Source: Granulosicoccus sp. (lineage in GTDB: Bacteria > Pseudomonadota > Gammaproteobacteria > Granulosicoccales > Granulosicoccaceae). From it: a stretch of 57,606 bases of DNA. How positions within the stretch are numbered: the first letter of the stretch is position 1; every line of letters starts with the position of its first letter. Positions 44,803 through 54,135 of this stretch are shown one piece after another. Made by a program: the position numbers and the translations under genes. The DNA lies in contig JAHDGK010000033.1 of assembly GCA_020627685.1 (NCBI GenBank), positions 1 through 57,606 on the forward strand, read 5' to 3'. The notes below the pieces were generated by a model that worked only from the letters and a program-made list of their open reading frames with translations, made no database searches and was not told the origin of the DNA.

Positions 44803-47247
44803 CTAACTCCTTAGTGCTTCATTACTCGGATCGTAAGGCGACTCTGCGACGACTTTAGCGTTTCGCAGAACACCGAGGATCTGAACCTGAACTTCTGTTC
44901 CCGGCTCATTCAACTCGGGCTTAATATAACTCAACGCCACACTTTTCCCAATTCGATGTCCAAATCCGCCGGAAGTCGTGTATCCGACGTTTTCACCATT
45001 CTGGAAAACCGGGCATCCGTATAAGGCGTCAGTCTTGTTGACCGTGTCATCGTCACTGTATTCGTCCAGCACCAATGTAGCGAATATGTCTATCAAGGGT
45101 TTTTCCGACTCAGCTACGAGCGCATCTCTGCCTTTAAAAGCTGGCTTGGAGAGATCCACGAAGCGATTCAGACCGGAGCGCAATGGAGAATATTCATGAT
45201 CAAGCTCTGCCTTCCATGCGCGGTAGCTTTTCTCAAGCCGCATAGAATCCATGGCGTACATACCAAAGTCTTTCAAATCAAACGCTTCGCCAGCTTTCAT
45301 GAGCGCTTCGTACAAGGCCAGATGATCTTCCGTCTTCACGTGAAGCTCCCAACCTAACTCTCCCACGTAGTTCACTCGAAGTGCACGCACTGCAATACCA
45401 GAAAGCTGAATATCCTGATAAGTCAGCCAACGGAAAGACTCGTTAGAGACGTCGGTGTTGGTCAACTGTTGCATGACTTCACGGGAACGAGGACCGGCCA
45501 GTACCAGTGTTCCAATATCGTCAGTGATGTCGTTGATTTTTATGTCGCTGCCTTCAGGCAAGTGTTGCTCTAACCACTGATAGTCATGCCACTTAGCCGC
45601 ACCGGCTGTGATTAGCAAATAGTGTTCTTCAGCAAGACGAGTCAGGGTCATTTCAGACCAGACACCACCGTCGTCTGCGCAGAAGTAAGACAAGGACAAA
45701 CGCCCTACACGAGGCATTTTGCCGGCAATTAAGGAGTCCAGCCATTCAGTCGTACCCGCTCCCTGAACGTCGTACTTGGTGAAACCACCCATATCTAACA
45801 GTCCGACATTGTCACGAACATTCAAACATTCAGCTCGCACCGCATCAAACCATTCGCCTTGCTGATAGCTAGGGGCCGCACCTGTAGTATCACCGGATCG
45901 CGCAAACCAGGTAGCTCGCTCCCAGCCACCGCGGGCACCAAACTGCGCACCTTTGTTTTTGAGGGTGTCGTAGGCTGGAGTGACCTTTCGTGGTCTGCCT
46001 GCCGGACGCTCTTCATTGGGGAAATTTATCGCGTATTCGTGCTGGTACAGTTCAAGCGCTCTATCAACCACATAAGGTTGGTCCGCATAGTCGGTGTATC
46101 GACGTGGATCCAAACTCCAAAGGTCCCATTCTGGCTTTCCGTCAATGACCCACTCTGCGATGGACTTACCAGCACCACCGCCCTGACAAATACCGAAACT
46201 AAACCCGTTAATGTGGAAAAAGTTCGGCAGACCGAAAGCAGGCCCGACGTACGGCATGCCATCCGGTGAATATGGGATGGGGCCGTTGATAACGCGCTGC
46301 ACACCCACGCTGCCCAGTATAGGCATACGCTCGCAGGCTTTTTCTATGTACCACTCCAGTCGCTCTAGATCGTCCGGATACAATTCATAGGCGAACTTTT
46401 CCGGAATCTTGCCATCGGTCCAACGCGCAGCGGCATTCTCTTTTTCGTAAGGTCCGAGGATTAAGCCGGTTTTCTCTTGACGGAGATAGTAGGAATCATC
46501 AGGGTCTCGGACCAAAGGCATAAGACCATCCATGGCTTCCAGTTCAGGAATGGATTCAGTGACCAAGTATTGATGCTCTAAAGAGACCATCGGCAGGAAC
46601 TTGCCACCTAATTCGGTGACTTCAGCGCCACGGTAGCCACCCGCGTTGATGACGTATTCACACAGAACATCACCTTTGTCAGTTTGTACCTTCCACTCAC
46701 CTGCGTCCGTTCGGGAGACTCCAGTCACTTTAGTAAATCGGTGAATGGTAGCACCGGCTTTACGTGCGTGCGTGGCGAATGCCTGCGTAAGCTGACTCGG
46801 ATCGATATCACCATCATGCGGGTCCCACAATGCACCCAGAACATCATGATCTTCTAGGAACGGGTTGCGTGCTTTCATCTCTTTGTTATCGATGATTTCG
46901 TAACCCAGCCCCATAGCATTGGCCATGGCTGTTACGTGTTCAAATTCTTCCATGCGTTGTTTGTTCTGAGCAAGGCGAATAGAACCGGTCTGGTGATAGT
47001 TGATGGGATACTCTGGGTCTTTACAGAGCTTCGCATATAGCTCTGTACTGTAATGCTGCATTTTAATGATGTTGCGCGACCCGGAAAACGTTGGAATGTT
47101 TCCGGCTGCGTGCCATGTTGAACCGGATGTCAGTTCATCCATTTCCAACAGCATGCAGTCGGTCCAACCGCGCTCTGCTAAGTGGTAAAGCGCACTGGTT
47201 CCCGCAACGCCACCTCCAATGATGACAACTCTAGCGGTCGATTTCAT
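44803..47247 (-). CDS. Dimethylglycine/sarcosine dehydrogenase-like FAD-GcvT fusion
   Basis: This 814-residue protein has an N-terminal DAO-type FAD domain ('VVIIGGGVAGTSALYHLAER') with 'TSGSTWHAAGN', where the His is the covalent FAD site in dimethylglycine dehydrogenase. 'GVQRVINGPIPYSPDGMPYV' and 'FSFGICQGGGAGKSIAEWVI' follow, and the second half is a GcvT/folate-binding domain ('LAGPRSREVMQQLT', 'YVGELGWELHVKTED', 'GMYAMDSMRLEKSYRAW'). Such enzymes N-demethylate a secondary or tertiary methylamine and transfer the carbon to tetrahydrofolate. It overlaps the MttB-like gene by 4 bases, so the two are translationally coupled and probably act in one methylated-amine pathway. Confidence 0.9.
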   Translation of the reverse strand: MKSTARVVIIGGGVAGTSALYHLAERGWTDCMLLEMDELTSGSTWHAAGNIPTFSGSRNIIKMQHYSTELYAKLCKDPEYPINYHQTGSIRLAQNKQRMEEFEHVTAMANAMGLGYEIIDNKEMKARNPFLEDHDVLGALWDPHDGDIDPSQLTQAFATHARKAGATIHRFTKVTGVSRTDAGEWKVQTDKGDVLCEYVINAGGYRGAEVTELGGKFLPMVSLEHQYLVTESIPELEAMDGLMPLVRDPDDSYYLRQEKTGLILGPYEKENAAARWTDGKIPEKFAYELYPDDLERLEWYIEKACERMPILGSVGVQRVINGPIPYSPDGMPYVGPAFGLPNFFHINGFSFGICQGGGAGKSIAEWVIDGKPEWDLWSLDPRRYTDYADQPYVVDRALELYQHEYAINFPNEERPAGRPRKVTPAYDTLKNKGAQFGARGGWERATWFARSGDTTGAAPSYQQGEWFDAVRAECLNVRDNVGLLDMGGFTKYDVQGAGTTEWLDSLIAGKMPRVGRLSLSYFCADDGGVWSEMTLTRLAEEHYLLITAGAAKWHDYQWLEQHLPEGSDIKINDITDDIGTLVLAGPRSREVMQQLTNTDVSNESFRWLTYQDIQLSGIAVRALRVNYVGELGWELHVKTEDHLALYEALMKAGEAFDLKDFGMYAMDSMRLEKSYRAWKAELDHEYSPLRSGLNRFVDLSKPAFKGRDALVAESEKPLIDIFATLVLDEYSDDDTVNKTDALYGCPVFQNGENVGYTTSGGFGHRIGKSVALSYIKPELNEPGTEVQVQILGVLRNAKVVAESPYDPSNEALRS

Positions 47248-48815
47248 GATACTTCCTCAGTTCTATTCATTGCCTCGAGAGGTAACTCGACATTAAATTT
47301 AGCGCGTATAGCTGCATCAACCTCAGCTGGAATATGCGTTGGGTAATGAGACCCCAAGACTTCATCCACTTTGTTACGCGCCTGTTCGATCAACACCGGC
47401 TTGCCTTGTTCCGCCCACTCTTTCGGACTTGTACGATCACCGATGTTCGGATAGATGTATTCTTTTTGCATGAGGCTCAGTGTTTGTCCATGCCCGAGAA
47501 AATGGTTCGGACCATCGATGCAGACATCTCGCATTGCATCCAGCGAGAGAGTTTCATCATTAACTTCAATGCCTCTGACCGTTCGGTTTATGGCTCCTAG
47601 CATATCGTTATCAATCACCATGCTTTCGTAACAAACACCCAATAGTGATGCGTGCATACCGGCGGATTCATAGATAAGGTTTGCACCAGAGTGAGCTGCC
47701 AGCGTATTGGTGTAGGCTTTTTCATAACCGGACTGAGCATCGGGGAGCTTTGCGTCCGCCATACCTGCAGCAACACCCGTAGGCAATCCGTAGTAGCGAC
47801 CCATCTGACCACAGGCGGCCATCAGCACGGCTTGCTCGCCACTACCGCCACTCATTGATCCGGTTCGTAAGTCGGACACGAAAGGCCAAGTTCCAAAAAT
47901 GGCTGGATGACCCGGTACAAGTAAATTAACGTAGACGAGTCCTGCTAATACTTCGGCCACTTCTTGAACTACTGCACCTGCCAGTGCTGCCGGGCTTGTT
48001 GCACCAGCCTGACCGGCGGCAAGCAATAAAACAGGCATGCCACCTCGAACGGCGGTCTCCATGCAATGACAGGAATCTTCAGCAAATCGCAACGGTGGTA
48101 CAACAAAACAATTGGACATGCTAACGAAAGGACGTTCGCGCCATTTCTTTTCGCTACCCGCGATCATGTGAAGCATCTCTAGTGATTTCGTGACATGCTC
48201 AGGCTCTACCCAGCTACTACCCACATGCTTCGTAGTACCGCTAACCGCGGCGTAACACGTATTGAAATCCAGATCGACAGGTTCCACAACATCACGCGCT
48301 ACCAGACAGCGCTGGAAGTAATGGATATTGTCCATCTTGTCGACTAAACGCGCCATGTCGTACAGATCGTTCAAGGTCGAATCACGATACTCCCGACCTT
48401 CGATGTCTACGATGTGTACAGCCGCCCCAGCGGTGCCGAAATAAACACGAGAACCTGATACTTCTATGTCATGCTTAGGATCTTGCCCGTACAGAACCAG
48501 TTCTTTCGCACAATACCCGAGGACATCCTCGACAAGCGAACGCGGAAAAAGAAGCCTACCGTCTTTGTAAGTCCCCCCTGCTTTGGTCACCGCCTCCACA
48601 CAGGAAGGTATGGCTTGGGCTAGGCCGATGGTCGACAAGGCCGTCATCACTGCCTCGTTAATTTTGTCCATATCGGAATCTGTCAGCGGCTTATATCGGC
48701 CGCTAGTCATTCCTGGGCGAACCGCCTTGTCCTCCTCCGCTAATGGCGCAGCCCTTAAGGCTCTTTTAGCAGCACGCGCGTTGCGTCGGGAAGGCTTCTT
48801 GATTGGGTCGTTCAT
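47244..48815 (-). CDS. Trimethylamine methyltransferase (MttB) superfamily protein, non-pyrrolysine
   Basis: Starting at the ATG at 48815 the protein has 523 residues, like other MttB homologues. The open frame runs further upstream, but that segment is not family-like. The N-terminus is basic ('RRNARAAKRALRAAPLAEED'), followed by 'ALSTIGLAQAIPSCVEAVTK', 'VYFGTAGAAVHIVDIEGREY' and 'PGHPAIFGTWPFVSDLRTGS'. The reading frame has no amber codon, so it is the kind that uses no pyrrolysine, like glycine betaine methyltransferase MtgB. MttB proteins hand a methyl group to a corrinoid protein, yet no corrinoid-protein gene is in this window. It is coupled to the dimethylglycine dehydrogenase-like gene. 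Confidence 0.87.
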   Translation of the reverse strand: MNDPIKKPSRRNARAAKRALRAAPLAEEDKAVRPGMTSGRYKPLTDSDMDKINEAVMTALSTIGLAQAIPSCVEAVTKAGGTYKDGRLLFPRSLVEDVLGYCAKELVLYGQDPKHDIEVSGSRVYFGTAGAAVHIVDIEGREYRDSTLNDLYDMARLVDKMDNIHYFQRCLVARDVVEPVDLDFNTCYAAVSGTTKHVGSSWVEPEHVTKSLEMLHMIAGSEKKWRERPFVSMSNCFVVPPLRFAEDSCHCMETAVRGGMPVLLLAAGQAGATSPAALAGAVVQEVAEVLAGLVYVNLLVPGHPAIFGTWPFVSDLRTGSMSGGSGEQAVLMAACGQMGRYYGLPTGVAAGMADAKLPDAQSGYEKAYTNTLAAHSGANLIYESAGMHASLLGVCYESMVIDNDMLGAINRTVRGIEVNDETLSLDAMRDVCIDGPNHFLGHGQTLSLMQKEYIYPNIGDRTSPKEWAEQGKPVLIEQARNKVDEVLGSHYPTHIPAEVDAAIRAKFNVELPLEAMNRTEEVS

Positions 48816-48978
48816 AGCATGAGTACCATTCGCGGGAGGAACAATTAACCATTCAAGTATCAACCCGGAAGTGGTACCTAGGCCGCATCGCCACGACTCA
48901 TACACACACTGAAGCGACAGGCATGACGCTAATGTACGATATCTGTGGAGAAAGCCCAGCCTGCCCCCGCAAACAGGG

Positions 48979-50001
48979 TCAATTACGCTTTCTGGCCTCT
49001 GTCGGCGAGTAGCCGAATTGCACGCGGAAACGTCGCGAAAAATAGTCTGCTGATGTGAATCCAACGGCCGCCGCAATCTCTAGAACGCTCATTGCCGTCT
49101 GCCGTAGAAGCTCGTGACCCACCCGAAGGCGAACTCGCTGGTAATACAAGGTGGGCGTTGTTCGAAGATGCGCTCTGAACAGTCTCTCCAGCTGCCTCGA
49201 CGATATACCGACCATAGAGGCCAATTCGGCCGTACTAATCGGTTGCTCAAGATTGGATTCCATCAGCTCTATACAGCTAACCACACCCGGGTGATAGACC
49301 CCGGTTCTCTCAACGATGCTTCGCCTCTGAGGTGCCGACGAGTCTCGAGTATCGGTTGCGATGAACAAATCGGCCACCTGCGTTGCCAGAGCATTGCCGT
49401 GATCTTCACGCACAATTGCCAGCATCATGTCCAGAGCTGCCGTCCCACCAGCACAAGTAAAGAGACCGTCATCGACTTCAAACAACTCTGATGAGACTGT
49501 CAGCTGTGGGAAGGCTTCACGAAAACCCGGCAGGTTTTCCCAATGAATTGTGCAACGCCGACGTTTGATTAAATCGGCTTGCGCCAGTAGATAACTTCCT
49601 GAATCGAGGGAGCCTATTAAAGTGCCTCTGGAGGCATGCTGCCGCAATGCCCGAAGCGCTTTAGTGTCGTCAAAACGGTGTGGTTCATGAGGGCCACAGA
49701 CGATCAATCTATTCAGCTTACTCATATCGTGAATGCTGCCATCCACCGAGATTTGCATGGCATTGTTTGCACGGACTTGCTCAGTACCACTGCCTAATAA
49801 CACCCAGTCGTAGAGATCGCGTCCGCTAAAGCGATTCGCTGCCCGCAGCGGTTCAAGAGCAGATACGAATGGCAACATAGCAAACGTATCAGTTAGGTAG
49901 AATCCTATTTTTTGTTCAGCAGCGCCACGCACGACACCATAGCGATGAAGATCGAGTTTTGCATCCTGCTCACTATCATTGTGGTTATCAGAGGACGCCA
50001 T
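48979..50001 (-). CDS. GlxA-family AraC-type transcriptional regulator
   Basis: This 340-residue regulator has an N-terminal DJ-1/PfpI-like ligand domain ('FDDTKALRALRQHASRGTLI', 'LFTCAGGTAALDMMLAIV') and a C-terminal double helix-turn-helix of AraC type ('ISTAELASMVGISSRQLERL', 'AMSVLEIAAAVGFTSADYFS', 'RRFRVQFGYSPTEARKR'). The build is that of GbdR/CdhR, which activate glycine betaine and carnitine breakdown. It sits 163 bases upstream of the MttB-like gene and is its likely regulator. Its start lies 8 bases after the acyl-AMP ligase stop on the same strand. Confidence 0.9.
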   Translation of the reverse strand: MASSDNHNDSEQDAKLDLHRYGVVRGAAEQKIGFYLTDTFAMLPFVSALEPLRAANRFSGRDLYDWVLLGSGTEQVRANNAMQISVDGSIHDMSKLNRLIVCGPHEPHRFDDTKALRALRQHASRGTLIGSLDSGSYLLAQADLIKRRRCTIHWENLPGFREAFPQLTVSSELFEVDDGLFTCAGGTAALDMMLAIVREDHGNALATQVADLFIATDTRDSSAPQRRSIVERTGVYHPGVVSCIELMESNLEQPISTAELASMVGISSRQLERLFRAHLRTTPTLYYQRVRLRVGHELLRQTAMSVLEIAAAVGFTSADYFSRRFRVQFGYSPTEARKRN

Positions 50002-50009
50002 TCATGTTC

Positions 50010-51983
50010 TCAACCGGAAGCCTTGGCATCGAGAAAGTCTGCTAACTCTGAAACAGTCGGGTAATCAAACAGGTCGGTTATATCGACCTGATCCGGCCAT
50101 TGTTCTTCAATGGCTGCATGGATCGAGGCCAAGGTCAGCGAGCTAATTCCCAACTCAAATAAATTGTCGTCTGTGGCCACCGTCATACCCTCTACTTCCT
50201 TGTTACAGATCGCCAATAATAACGACGCCGTGTCATCTAAACTTTGACTCCCTTCACTGGCCTGCGCATCTTGTTCATCGCCTGCATCTGATTTAGCTTG
50301 CAAGAGCGTTGTGTATTCTCCATCTCCTAAGCCCTGAATCAGCAAATACCGCTGCACTTTACCACTCGTTGTTTTTGGTATTCGTGAGACAGGCACCAAG
50401 GCATGCACACTGACACCTGCTGCTTCTGATAGTGTTTTAGTCATCGCTTTTCCCATGTCAGTAAGCTCTTCGGGAGCGCCGCGATGAAGTACAAACACAT
50501 GCAACAGTTCATCATCTCGCCCCGCTTCACGATGACTGGCAATAGCCACTTTTCCGCGCTCAACGAGCCCGCGCTGAATGACTATTTCTTCTAAGTCGTG
50601 TGGGTATACGTTCTGACCGTTAACAAAAATGATGTCTTTGGCTCGGCCGGTGATATACAAACTACCGTCTTGAATAAATCCCAAGTCGCCTGTATTCAAC
50701 CAACCCGATTCTGTGATCGTCTCATTGTTGAGTTCAGGCTCTTGATAGTAGCCTGAGGTGACATTAGCACCGTGAATGCAGATGAGCCCGGTGACTCCCT
50801 CACTGTAGGTATCGCCACTCTCACTTCGAATCTCGACGCTTACGTCTTGCACAGGTTTACCCACTGCTACGAAATCTATACCCGCAGCTGCATCACTCTC
50901 TAAGGGGCTAATAGACTGACCCAAGCCAAGTTGGCCTCTGTCGATGGTGATTGATTTAAATCGCTCATCCATACGCGGAAACGTCACCGCAAGACTCGCT
51001 TCGGCAAGACCATACACAGGACACATAGCATCTGATGCTAAGTTGAACGGCGCAAGACTCTGCATAAAACGCTGACACAAATCGACGGATATCGGTTCGG
51101 CCCCGTTAAACACCAGGCGCACCGAGCTTAAATCTAATGCTTCATGCTTTTCTGGTTTAAAAGACTTAAGCAAATGCTGGTAGCCAAAGTTCGGAGAGCA
51201 AAGCATCGTCGCTTTCAGAGTGGCTGCCTCAGTTAACCACAGTGCAGGACGACGAACAAAAACTTCCGTGGGCATAAGCGCCTGATCGACATCGCACACC
51301 AGCGGCGTTAAGTGGAAACCAATGAGGCCCATATCATGCGTAAGAGGCATCCAACTAAATAGATGGTCGCTCTGTGTCATATCGCAACCGACGATGATGG
51401 ATCGCGTGTTTACCAGTAAATTTTTATGCGTCAGCACAACACCTTTTGGGGTGCTTGTTGATCCTGATGAGAATTGAATAAACGCAACATCGTCTTCGTT
51501 AGCCGTGACGATATTAGCGGAGCCTCCTTCGGGTGCTGCCTCTGTACAGTCAATCGTGCGCTGAGCCAAATCTGCATAGATTTCGACAAGCGCGTTGTCT
51601 TCTGCGAAATCTTTCAATCGCTTGCTGGTTTGAGAATCCGTATAGACACCGGGAGTATCGAGTTTCGCAGCTATTCGGAAAAACTTGTGTCTGTGTTCGT
51701 GACTATTGCCACCGGAAATAGGTACTGCAGTTATTCCACCCAAAAGACACGCCCAGAACGCCTCAAGAAACGCAGCATTGTCAGACGTCTGGATAATCAG
51801 TTGACTACCCCGTTCCAGCCCCAGTGTCTGAAACTGAGCAAGCCTGTTGTGCGCACGATCTAGCATCTGCCCATAGGCAATGCGCTCATGCTCACCTTGG
51901 CCTTTTACGATAGTGATACCGTGGAGGCTTGTTGCTCTATCTTGAAGAACATCAACTAAGGTTGTGTACTGTTTGGAATTCAT
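50010..51983 (-). CDS. Fatty-acyl-AMP ligase-like enzyme with C-terminal acyl-carrier domain
   Basis: This 657-residue adenylate-forming enzyme has 'FIQFSSGSTSTPKGVVLTHK' (P-loop), 'PVYGLAEASLAVTFP', 'SGWLNTGDLGFIQDGSLYIT' and 'GRAKDIIFVNGQNVYPHDLE'. These phrases are closer to fatty-acyl-AMP ligases than to acyl-CoA synthetases. The last 80 residues are a carrier domain with the phosphopantetheine Ser in 'ELGISSLTLASIHAAIEEQW'. It should activate an acyl chain and load it onto its own carrier. Its stop is close to the GlxA gene and its start overlaps the P450 stop by 4 bases. No condensing domain is nearby. Confidence 0.87.
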   Translation of the reverse strand: MNSKQYTTLVDVLQDRATSLHGITIVKGQGEHERIAYGQMLDRAHNRLAQFQTLGLERGSQLIIQTSDNAAFLEAFWACLLGGITAVPISGGNSHEHRHKFFRIAAKLDTPGVYTDSQTSKRLKDFAEDNALVEIYADLAQRTIDCTEAAPEGGSANIVTANEDDVAFIQFSSGSTSTPKGVVLTHKNLLVNTRSIIVGCDMTQSDHLFSWMPLTHDMGLIGFHLTPLVCDVDQALMPTEVFVRRPALWLTEAATLKATMLCSPNFGYQHLLKSFKPEKHEALDLSSVRLVFNGAEPISVDLCQRFMQSLAPFNLASDAMCPVYGLAEASLAVTFPRMDERFKSITIDRGQLGLGQSISPLESDAAAGIDFVAVGKPVQDVSVEIRSESGDTYSEGVTGLICIHGANVTSGYYQEPELNNETITESGWLNTGDLGFIQDGSLYITGRAKDIIFVNGQNVYPHDLEEIVIQRGLVERGKVAIASHREAGRDDELLHVFVLHRGAPEELTDMGKAMTKTLSEAAGVSVHALVPVSRIPKTTSGKVQRYLLIQGLGDGEYTTLLQAKSDAGDEQDAQASEGSQSLDDTASLLLAICNKEVEGMTVATDDNLFELGISSLTLASIHAAIEEQWPDQVDITDLFDYPTVSELADFLDAKASG

Positions 51984-53302
51984 GCGTTCCTGACTTCTGG
52001 CATCATGAAAATACTGTGGCGAGACCGCAGGTTGATATGGGGTTCGATATCAACCGGCTCTCCAGGCACATGACGCAATGAAAAATGACGAGCTAACAAG
52101 CCCAAATGCAGCTGCATATCGACCAGAGAAAAGAATTCTCCGATGCAACGTCTCGAGCCCAATGAAAAAGGATAGTAGACGTCTTTGTTACGTTCCTTTA
52201 TTTGTTCATCAGAAAAACGCTCCGGCAAGCATTGATCAGGATTGTCCCAGTAGCGAGGATCACGATGGAGAAGATACGGACACAAAAAGATATCGGCTCC
52301 AGCAGGAATTTTGACAACGCCATCGCCCTGTTTTAGCTCGTCGTGGTCAATGGCTTTTCTTGAAAACAACCAAACCGGTGGATAGAGGCGAAGCGTTTCG
52401 TCGATGAGCTGTTTTGTGTAACGCAGTTGCGGTATCTCGCCGAATTGAGGGGCCGCCTCTAGAGCGTCAACCTCCGCATGCAGAGCCGTTTCGATATCTT
52501 CATGCTGAGATAAAAGATACCAAGCCCAGTTGAGTGTCCCAGCAGTGGTTTCATGTCCGGCAACGATGATGGTCATGACCTCATCAATCAGCGCTTTGTC
52601 CGACATGGGCTCGTGCGTTTCTTTATCTTTAGTTTCCATCAGCAAGGACAGAAAATCGAGCTCGATTCGGGATTCCGCTCGCCGCTTGGCCATAATGTCC
52701 GCCACATGGCGTGTTAAGGCGCGAAAACGCATAGCCAGCTTTAAATCCCTGGTCACATCCTCGACCAACATGGCAAAAGGATTACTGCCGGTGGATTCAA
52801 TGAGCGCGTCCAGATCGTCGCTGAATAAAGCGCGGAGAACAACTTCCAGCGCAAGCTCGCTCATTTCTTCGGTTAAGTTGATGGCCTGTGAGTTTTCAGC
52901 CTTTAATTGCCAATCAGCACATTTACGCTCATTGCACTTAACCATCATCTGGGCAAGTGAGCCGATGATTTTTCGGTGAAACGCCGGTTGAATCATGCGT
53001 CTTTGGGAACGCCAGAAATCACCATCACTAACTATAATGCCGTTCCCGAGAAGCATCTTGACGCGCTCAAAACCAACACCCTTTGAATAATTTCGGTGGT
53101 TACCGATTAGGACATGGCGAACGTGCTCAGGATTATTAAGCACAAAGGCCGGGGATTTACGTTGCGCTGGCGTTAGCGCCACGATATCGCCGTACTCCTC
53201 GCGCCATACCGCTAGTTTGTCGAACGATTCGTCGTCGACGTTGATATCAAAAGGCTCCGCTGGGCCGCGAATGTCATTAGAAAAACTAGTTGATTGAGAC
53301 AC
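51980..53302 (-). CDS. Cytochrome P450
   Basis: This 440-residue P450 has the I-helix 'IIVAGHETTAGTLNWAWYLL', ExxR in 'LIDETLRLYPPVW', 'PERFSDEQ' and the heme-thiolate loop 'YPFSLGSRRCIGEFFSLVD'. 'WRSQRRMIQPAFHRK' is the C-helix. The overall wording is of the CYP4/CYP102-like fatty-acid-hydroxylating type. It is coupled by 4 bases to an acyl-AMP ligase with a carrier domain, so its substrate may be the carrier-bound acyl chain. It needs a ferredoxin or reductase partner from elsewhere. Confidence 0.93.
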   Translation of the reverse strand: MSQSTSFSNDIRGPAEPFDINVDDESFDKLAVWREEYGDIVALTPAQRKSPAFVLNNPEHVRHVLIGNHRNYSKGVGFERVKMLLGNGIIVSDGDFWRSQRRMIQPAFHRKIIGSLAQMMVKCNERKCADWQLKAENSQAINLTEEMSELALEVVLRALFSDDLDALIESTGSNPFAMLVEDVTRDLKLAMRFRALTRHVADIMAKRRAESRIELDFLSLLMETKDKETHEPMSDKALIDEVMTIIVAGHETTAGTLNWAWYLLSQHEDIETALHAEVDALEAAPQFGEIPQLRYTKQLIDETLRLYPPVWLFSRKAIDHDELKQGDGVVKIPAGADIFLCPYLLHRDPRYWDNPDQCLPERFSDEQIKERNKDVYYPFSLGSRRCIGEFFSLVDMQLHLGLLARHFSLRHVPGEPVDIEPHINLRSRHSIFMMPEVRNA

Positions 53303-53409
53303 GAAACAGGCCTGGATATGCGAGCGCTAAGATGAGTGATTTTTCTATTTAGATTACGACACAGTATATCATTGGGTCTTCCGGCATAGGTTTGCCTAAG
53401 CTTTGTCCT

Positions 53410-54135
53410 ATGGCACCTACTTATTCAGCCCGATTTGAGCCCTCGTCCATGAATTTCAAGCAAGCGCGTCGCCGTCTGGGCGCTAAGATTTTCCCACCCA
53501 TCGTGTGGGGAATCATTCGGCTGATCTGGAAAACCTGCCGAATCAAGACCGTCATCGGAAGTGAGCATTTGCAATCGGTGCTCGCTCAAGAAAAGCCGTG
53601 CATTCCGTGTTACTGGCACCAGCAACAAATCTTTTGTGTTCGTTATCTTTTGAACGTGGCGAACGATGACTCGCGACTCAAATTAGGCTACCTCATCAGC
53701 CCCTCATCGGATGGGGATATCGCAACCAATATGTTCGGCAATCAAGGCGTTCATATCATTCGTGGTTCTGCCACTCGGGGTGGTGCGCAGGCATTGCGAG
53801 AAATCTACATGAGAATTAAGAAAGATCAGCTATCTCCTATTGTAACGCCTGATGGACCAACCGGGCCTATTTACGAATGCAAACCGGGTGTTGCGATGCT
53901 GGCCCAGCTGAGCAAAGCACCCATGCTGCCGCTGGCCTATGCGGCATCCAGTTGCTGGCATCTGAAATCCTGGGATAGGTTTATGATTCCCCGCCCTTTT
54001 GCACATATTGTAATTGGAGTTGGCGAACCGCTTGAGGTAAAAAAGGAAGATGCTGCTGACGACTTCAAAACGGTGTGCAGCGAAATGAACTATCGCTTAA
54101 ATGCAGTTGCAGCAAATTGCAAGGACAGTCTTTGA
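53410..54135 (+). CDS. DUF374 lysophospholipid acyltransferase-like protein
   Basis: With the ATG at 53410 this 241-residue protein has an N-terminal basic/hydrophobic segment ('FPPIVWGIIRLIWKTCRIKT'), 'EKPCIPCYWHQQQ', 'SPSSDGDIATNMFGNQGVHI', 'IRGSATRGGAQALREI' and 'VTPDGPTGPIYECKPGVAML'. That is the DUF374 pattern related to lipid A and phospholipid acyltransferases. An ATG at 53449 is an alternative start. It is divergent from the P450 gene. The substrate is unknown; the neighbourhood suggests a lipid product, which is inference. Confidence 0.83.
   Translation: MAPTYSARFEPSSMNFKQARRRLGAKIFPPIVWGIIRLIWKTCRIKTVIGSEHLQSVLAQEKPCIPCYWHQQQIFCVRYLLNVANDDSRLKLGYLISPSSDGDIATNMFGNQGVHIIRGSATRGGAQALREIYMRIKKDQLSPIVTPDGPTGPIYECKPGVAMLAQLSKAPMLPLAYAASSCWHLKSWDRFMIPRPFAHIVIGVGEPLEVKKEDAADDFKTVCSEMNYRLNAVAANCKDSL

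Follow-up and report, generated by a model that had tools for sequence, protein, structure and literature searches.

A contig of 57,606 nucleotides from Granulosicoccus sp. (JAHDGK010000033.1; hereafter, the window) carries a compact cassette encoding a fatty acyl-AMP ligase with a C-terminal acyl carrier protein (FAAL-ACP), a cytochrome P450 whose gene shares four bases with that of the ligase, and a divergently transcribed acyltransferase of the DUF374 (PF04028) family. The gene set is conserved among related bacteria, its catalytic residues are retained, and within the genus above all the cassette stands in exchange for the late lipid A acyltransferase LpxM. We give an even chance to the reading that the cassette is a dedicated line in which a free fatty acid is activated, oxidized on the carrier and delivered to lipid A in place of LpxM. 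The layout had been described in the original prediction and is borne out by the open reading frame (ORF) list and Pfam. The compact hydroxy-acyl lipid system proposed there finds good support as a conserved gene set with an acyltransferase at its end and is narrowed here to a candidate lipid A system, whereas the P450 proved not to be obligatory.

Within the genus of the window, 14 of 27 genomes harbor a FAAL-ACP ortholog (49-72% identity in the 13 besides the window's own genome, G000), and none was found in 21 genomes from other genera of the family. The P450 gene lies directly upstream of the ligase gene in all 14, and coordinates place the DUF374 gene past the P450 on the opposite strand, again in 14 of 14; DUF374 is present in exactly the genus genomes that carry the cassette. 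In a class-wide sample of 276 genomes, at least 90% complete, FAAL-ACP was detected in 20 (E <= 1e-100) and the P450 in 14 (E <= 1e-90; next match, 1.7e-74), with every one of these P450s adjoining a FAAL-ACP. A late acyltransferase adjoins the FAAL-ACP in 17 of the 20, from DUF374 in 15 cases and from PF03279, the LpxL/LpxM family, in two (G062 and G185). DUF374 was not found in G229, where the contig begins within the ligase gene, or in G282, where it stops 270 bases past the ligase, and the FAAL match of G146 lies inside a 2523-residue frame of a different kind, long and resembling polyketide synthases (PKS) or nonribosomal peptide synthetases (NRPS). DUF374 occurs in 38 of the 276 genomes (37 above cut-off). 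In 23 of these 38 no FAAL-ACP adjoins it, which shows that the family also exists without the cassette. Conservation counts in the class sample and in the related loci described below rule out a chance neighborhood of three genes, and the joint conservation on which the original prediction had staked itself was borne out in the genus, the class sample and the related loci.

Within the genus, the distribution of LpxM is nearly the reverse of that of the cassette. A genus tree was inferred from 64 PF03279 proteins of the 27 genomes, E. coli LpxL and LpxM and six cassette-side proteins, leaving out five of the 69 listed genus matches (22-42 bits). On this tree, 11 proteins from 11 of the 13 cassette-less genomes group with E. 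coli LpxM (support 98/97), itself a long branch; the two cassette-less genomes lacking such a protein are 81% and 87% complete. None of the 14 cassette genomes, G000 included, has an LpxM-clade protein, several of the genomes being incomplete drafts. A wider FastTree phylogeny of 181 rows adds 17 cassette genomes of other families, 18 genomes with DUF374 only and 40 hand-picked control genomes with neither. Its LpxM clade (18 rows; support 98, and 82 for the part holding E. coli LpxM) has members from 17 of the 53 genomes that lack both cassette and DUF374 and from not one of the 49 that have either (Fisher P = 3e-6); outside the genus the corresponding counts are 6/40 and 0/35 (Fisher P = 0.019). 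An LpxM-clade protein was not found in any of the 31 cassette genomes in the trees. One other genus presents the same contrast, since G127, in which the cassette was not found, has an LpxM-type gene and the cassette genome G236 has none in the tree. PF03279 genes, counted by hand at >= 80 bits, average 1.06 per genome in the 18 DUF374-only genomes and 1.0 in 13 cassette genomes with DUF374, compared with 1.85 in the 40 controls (both DUF374 groups together versus controls, one-sided Mann-Whitney P = 1.2e-4).

For the wider tree, 118 proteins were extracted, of which seven weak ones (G310_q308, G103_q309, G221_q310, G232_q311, G309_q312, G062_q287 and G058_q382) and the short G113_q370 were left out; PF03279 matches below 80 bits, and three of 82-91 bits from controls G078, G089 and G101, were likewise kept out. 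The DUF374-only group comprises 18 of the 23 class genomes with non-adjacent DUF374, G062 having been placed with the cassette genomes and G073, G146, G171 and G202 left out; G146 was also excluded from the cassette group. Four cassette genomes of other families (G103, G221, G232 and G309) were scored as lacking LpxM without contributing any protein to the wider tree; they present only weak PF03279 matches (<35 bits), with canonical LpxL not recognized, and in them the cassette might perform more of the late acylation of lipid A.

Beyond the class sample, we analyzed the best 80 among 582 genome_contigs relatives, chosen by ligase similarity alone and titled as Gamma-, Beta- or unspecified Proteobacteria. 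Locus content was assessed by profile search within the limits of the contig edges, 54 of the 80 loci having flanks of no less than 2.9 kb on the upstream side and 1 kb on the downstream side, and ORFs were called by a simple longest-ORF rule, which is error-prone in G+C-rich genomes. The 54 well-flanked loci contain P450 in 46 cases, DUF374 in 47, PF03279 in seven and either acyltransferase in 49 (both in five), together with a phosphopantetheinyl-transferase-like gene in 14 and a radical SAM protein in three. Over all 80 loci, ignoring contig ends, the counts are 65 for P450, 56 for DUF374, 17 for PF03279 (close behind the ligase in each case), 65 for either acyltransferase, 22 for phosphopantetheinyl transferase, four for radical SAM and 10 for neither P450 nor acyltransferase. 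A Pfam spot check supported these calls for phosphopantetheinyl transferase in four of five cases (one below cut-off; L083 gave no match), for PF03279 in two of two and for radical SAM/SPASM in two of two. An acyltransferase without P450 occurs in three of the 54 (L063, L092 and L100), and the minimal unit seems to be the ligase-carrier with a late acyltransferase, the P450 being a common but not obligatory addition.

These loci bear on the possibility that the ligase and P450 form a stand-alone small-molecule pathway, lipopeptide-like or yielding a hydroxy fatty acid, next to which the acyltransferase is a mere neighbor. The ligase-carrier is indeed ~29-42% identical to bacillomycin-type and other NRPS/PKS loading units (among 20 of 104 plasmid records listed), and four loci (L049, L062, L098 and L106) pair it with a radical SAM protein instead. 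In all 46 well-flanked P450 loci, however, the cassette is accompanied by an adjacent late acyltransferase gene, in most cases DUF374 and in some of the LpxL family. Moreover, on a tree of 29 sampled cassette DUF374 proteins (22 of the 51 aligned cassette sequences and seven others) and 20 other DUF374 proteins from the class, the cassette proteins form one clade (Shimodaira-Hasegawa-like approximate likelihood ratio test, 99) apart from 18 of the 20; the two non-cassette proteins falling within it come from G122 and G289. The small-molecule pathway is largely refuted by the locus counts, and we regard it as very improbable.

Several loci depart from the common arrangement. In L049, L062, L098 and L106 (4/80; L049 and L098 confirmed by Pfam) the radical SAM protein occupies the place of the P450, perhaps for a different tailoring of the carrier-bound acid, and no late acyltransferase was seen in the three that are well flanked. 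Six loci titled Betaproteobacteria (L056, L073, L078, L080, L093 and L102; L056 confirmed by Pfam) have an LpxL-family gene convergent after the ligase-carrier, with a phosphopantetheinyl transferase behind it. On G199:C8 and G292:C10, two neighboring DUF374 genes lie next to the ligase-carrier.

The window's acyltransferase matches DUF374 at E 2e-16 (59.9 bits versus a curated cut-off of 26.8). DUF374 corresponds to LpxJ, a family of late acyltransferases for lipid A whose members stand in for LpxM in bacteria without it, and according to PMC6148475 the activity of Rickettsia LpxJ requires W60, H61, D86, D132, W172 and D173, the HX4D/E motif being absent. Matched by motif and spacing rather than by alignment with a characterized LpxJ, these critical residues are retained: in an alignment of 51 sequences (A1), W56, H57, D135, W175 and D176 are invariant and D88 nearly so. 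S86 replaces H84 of the Rickettsia enzyme, given as dispensable in that source, and the residue five positions past H57 is F62, neither D nor E, so that the window protein also lacks the HX4D/E motif. LpxJ as described in PMC6148475 thus resembles the cassette enzyme in family, critical residues and occurrence where LpxM is missing; it differs in being described there without ligase-carrier or P450 partners, and the sampled cassette proteins form a clade apart from most other class DUF374 proteins.

We name lipid A as the probable acceptor because DUF374 is the LpxJ family (PMC6148475), because some loci carry an LpxL-family gene in its stead or alongside it, and because the LpxM clade is absent from the 31 cassette genomes. 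The same supply line might instead serve another acceptor, such as a phospholipid, an aminolipid, or a sugar-nucleotide or glycolipid anchor, with the loss of LpxM coincidental to lineage, an alternative that we consider rather unlikely. In its favor are the fold comparison, the case of VexE, a possible single exchange in the genus and a PMT_2 gene near some loci, given below among the observations that weigh against our main reading. The AlphaFold model of the DUF374 protein (predicted local distance difference test (pLDDT) 92.0) matches PlsC (Z 13.4), PatA (13.0), GPAT (12.0) and LpxM (11.7) about equally, which fails to single out LpxM and places PlsC highest; the sole sequence-profile match in the PDB is PlsC, and weak; and none of three DUF374 proteins searched against NCBIfam gave a match. 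The related acyltransferases VexE and PatA serve other glycolipids, VexE being a lysophospholipid acyltransferase (LPLAT) family protein that uses hydroxyacyl-ACP on UDP-N-acetylglucosamine (UDP-GlcNAc), according to PMC9597891. On an rpoB tree, for which 15 of the 27 genus genomes were usable, a single clade might hold all the cassette genomes, in which case the exchange in the genus may amount to one event, or to one or two, and its P value be inflated; the exchange statistics treat genomes as independent although they are related. The test outside the genus is weak, as the class sample has few LpxM-clade proteins (6/40 controls, which were hand-picked). Neither P450 nor acyltransferase was seen in five of the 54 well-flanked loci, and the P450 is missing from some ligase-acyltransferase loci (the three named above, and G195, G221 and G310). 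A PMT_2-family glycosyltransferase near the cassette in four loci could also serve another glycolipid. Against such an acceptor, the ligase is accompanied by LpxJ- or LpxL-family proteins, both known from lipid A, and the LpxM contrast recurs in the second genus. Furthermore, the glycosyltransferase gene found directly behind DUF374 on the same strand in five other loci (L052, L059, L070, L104 and L105, of 80) belongs to Glyco_transf_9, the heptosyltransferase family. This family is known from the lipopolysaccharide core, and its presence fits a lipopolysaccharide setting.

The ligase-carrier matches the Pfam AMP-binding (E 4e-51) and PP-binding (E 5e-10) families, and its best NCBIfam match is 'fatty acyl-AMP ligase' (PRK09192; 371 bits, below the 600-bit cut-off). 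Its nearest solved structures are 6ulw, 3pbk and 4r0m, and the 18 best solved relatives (about 125.6-265 bits) bear fatty acyl-adenylate ligase, FadD32, FadD23, FadD28, McyG or loading-module titles, all of which we take to be of fatty acyl-AMP ligase type; an oxalate-CoA ligase follows at 104.5 bits. Judged by sequence, the enzyme resembles fatty acyl-AMP ligases and the loading domains of NRPS/PKS proteins more closely than acyl-CoA ligases. Its active-site residues are invariant or nearly so in an alignment of 29 sequences (A3), including the lysine of the SGK motif, which is presumably catalytic as throughout the superfamily. In keeping with the original prediction, Pfam detected no ketosynthase or NRPS module among the seven window proteins scanned in and around the cassette. 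G000 encodes three phosphopantetheinyl-transferase-family genes (on C70, C56 and C62; frames of 266, 248 and 130 residues), all of them outside the window's cassette, and the family fails to separate cassette from cassette-less genomes of the genus.

The product of 51980-53302 is a P450 (Pfam p450, E 3e-73) with the diagnostic motifs of these enzymes, namely the heme-thiolate cysteine loop, ExxR and the I-helix AGxET; Cys386, E302, R305 and A248-G249-E251-T252 are invariant across 32 aligned sequences (A2). The class assignment made originally holds, but its 'CYP4/CYP102-like' label was loose, as the solved sequences that come closest are CYP97 proteins (6l8i, 6j94, 6l8h), a Streptomyces P450 (7wzl/7wzm; 3dbg) and CYP3A4/3A7, with CYP102 and CYP4B1 entries ranking lower. 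By fold, the AlphaFold model (pLDDT 91.7) is closest to CYP184A1, on which no paper was found in the open-access literature, and is also near CYP97. One CYP184A1 entry (7wzm) holds oleic acid, and this likeness gives a hint, no more, of a fatty substrate for the modeled enzyme. That free oleic acid, and the fact that ligase and P450 are separate chains, would suit a scheme that still ends at lipid A but has the P450 work ahead of the loading step, either on the free fatty acid or through another oxidation such as an epoxidation or a desaturation. We judge this scheme improbable, given that in 34 of the 61 related loci with both ORFs called (starts chosen by rule) the P450 gene shares 1 or 4 bases with that of the ligase, which suggests coupled translation and perhaps a complex, and that P450s acting on carrier-bound substrates are known (P450 BioI, NikQ and OxyD). 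Hydroxylation on the carrier is what we infer, and the results do not separate action on the tethered chain from action on the free acid.

Taken as a dedicated supply line to lipid A, the cassette would work as follows. The FAAL domain would activate a free fatty acid as acyl-AMP and load it in cis onto the carrier at its C-terminal end, which would owe its holo form to a phosphopantetheinyl transferase encoded elsewhere in the window's genome and inside the cassette in some relatives. The translationally coupled P450 would oxidize, most simply hydroxylate, the carrier-bound chain, and the LpxJ-type acyltransferase would move the oxidized chain onto lipid A, filling the place of the missing LpxM, probably at the 3'-linked secondary position that LpxM would serve. 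In this scheme we infer the chain length, the site and order of oxidation, the starting point in free fatty acid and the identity of lipid A as the acceptor.

We found no description of a FAAL/P450/lipid A acyltransferase set in the open-access literature; most subscription journals lay outside the search, and a published account may therefore exist. The acyl chains that LpxL and LpxM transfer come from acyl-ACP (PMC9597891). By analogy, the best functional counterpart of the cassette is the rhizobial AcpXL/LpxXL system, in which C26:25OH, an unusual hydroxylated chain that according to PMC5613085 is built with dedicated FabZ and FabF, reaches lipid A by way of a carrier and an acyltransferase that are both dedicated to it. 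The cassette has a ligase fused to its carrier, which should load a ready-made acid, and a P450; neither FabZ/FabF elongation genes nor a ketosynthase were found among the cassette genes and window neighbors scanned. LpxN of Vibrio cholerae similarly furnishes the 3' position of lipid A with a secondary chain that is hydroxylated, but is an LpxM homolog using 3-hydroxylaurate, and its account in PMC3178793 mentions no dedicated ligase, carrier or P450 in the part consulted. VexE, the Vi antigen hydroxyacyltransferase, is an LPLAT-fold enzyme that also takes a hydroxyacyl chain from ACP, but its acceptor is UDP-GlcNAc, and the relevant passages of PMC9597891 mention no dedicated ligase-carrier. 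Lipopeptide and polyketide FAAL-ACP loading units (4r0m McyG; bacillomycin BamA) share the ligase and carrier architecture and are among the nearest sequences, whereas in the window no ketosynthase or NRPS module follows and the partner is a lipid-A-type acyltransferase.

Table 1. Features of the cassette (ORF list: 50010-51983 and 51980-53302, reverse strand; 53392-54135, forward strand)
Feature	Position	Strand	Details and basis
FAAL-ACP (ligase with C-terminal carrier)	50010..51983	-	657 aa, ATG start; Pfam, NCBIfam, nearest structures
AMP-binding (adenylating) domain of FAAL-ACP	50745..51923	-	residues 21-413; Pfam
Lys542 of SGK motif, FAAL-ACP	50358-50360	-	beyond AMP-binding domain; invariant, 29 aligned sequences
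Carrier (PP-binding) domain of FAAL-ACP	50031..50192	-	residues 598-651; Pfam
Probable phosphopantetheine serine Ser615, FAAL-ACP	codon 50139-50141	-	invariant, 29 aligned sequences
Cytochrome P450	51980..53302	-	440 aa, GTG start; Pfam, alignment of 32, AlphaFold
P450 heme ligand Cys386	codon 52145-52147	-	invariant, 32 aligned sequences
P450 stop / FAAL-ACP start overlap, ATGA	51980..51983	-	4 shared bases
DUF374/LpxJ-family acyltransferase	53449..54135	+	228 aa from ATG; TTG at 53392 gives 247 aa
Divergent intergenic region	53303..53448	.	position only

The acyltransferase probably starts at its ATG rather than at the upstream TTG, and the ATG start was used for the DUF374 alignment and model; judging from position, both promoters probably lie in the divergent intergenic region. 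Just downstream of the cassette, 44803-50001 (reverse strand) encodes a GbdR-like regulator, an MTTB-family methyltransferase and a DMGDH-like oxidoreductase, the regulator ORF beginning 8 bases past the ligase stop. A link between the cassette and these choline/betaine-type genes was rejected, as they lie near it only in some genus mates. In distant loci, the commonest neighbor on the DUF374 side (25/80, for example L076:2889-5585) is a protein of ~890 residues whose one scanned representative is a PAS-GGDEF-EAL (cyclic-di-GMP) protein, which rules out PolA. A quinolinate phosphoribosyltransferase gene lies near the cassette in 26 loci, and genes for an aminopeptidase, FUR and an exonuclease also occur; these commonest other neighbors look unrelated.

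Together, these results lead us to propose, tentatively and with slightly less than even confidence, a widespread and apparently undescribed branch of lipid A biosynthesis in the Gamma- and Betaproteobacteria, in which a late chain would come from free fatty acid on a private carrier, be oxidized by a P450 and be fitted by exchangeable LpxJ- or LpxL-type enzymes, LpxM being replaced at least in Granulosicoccus and perhaps in one other genus. A private carrier for a lipid A chain is known from the rhizobial very-long-chain system, and a private ligase-carrier and P450 ahead of the late acyltransferase would give lipid A both a novel source of chains and a novel chemistry. The lineages harboring the cassette are known mainly from metagenomes and are mostly uncultivated. 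The acyl chains of lipid A influence both the permeability of the outer membrane and its recognition by immune systems, and, if the proposal is true, these cells could write scavenged fatty acids, in oxidized form, into their outer membrane.

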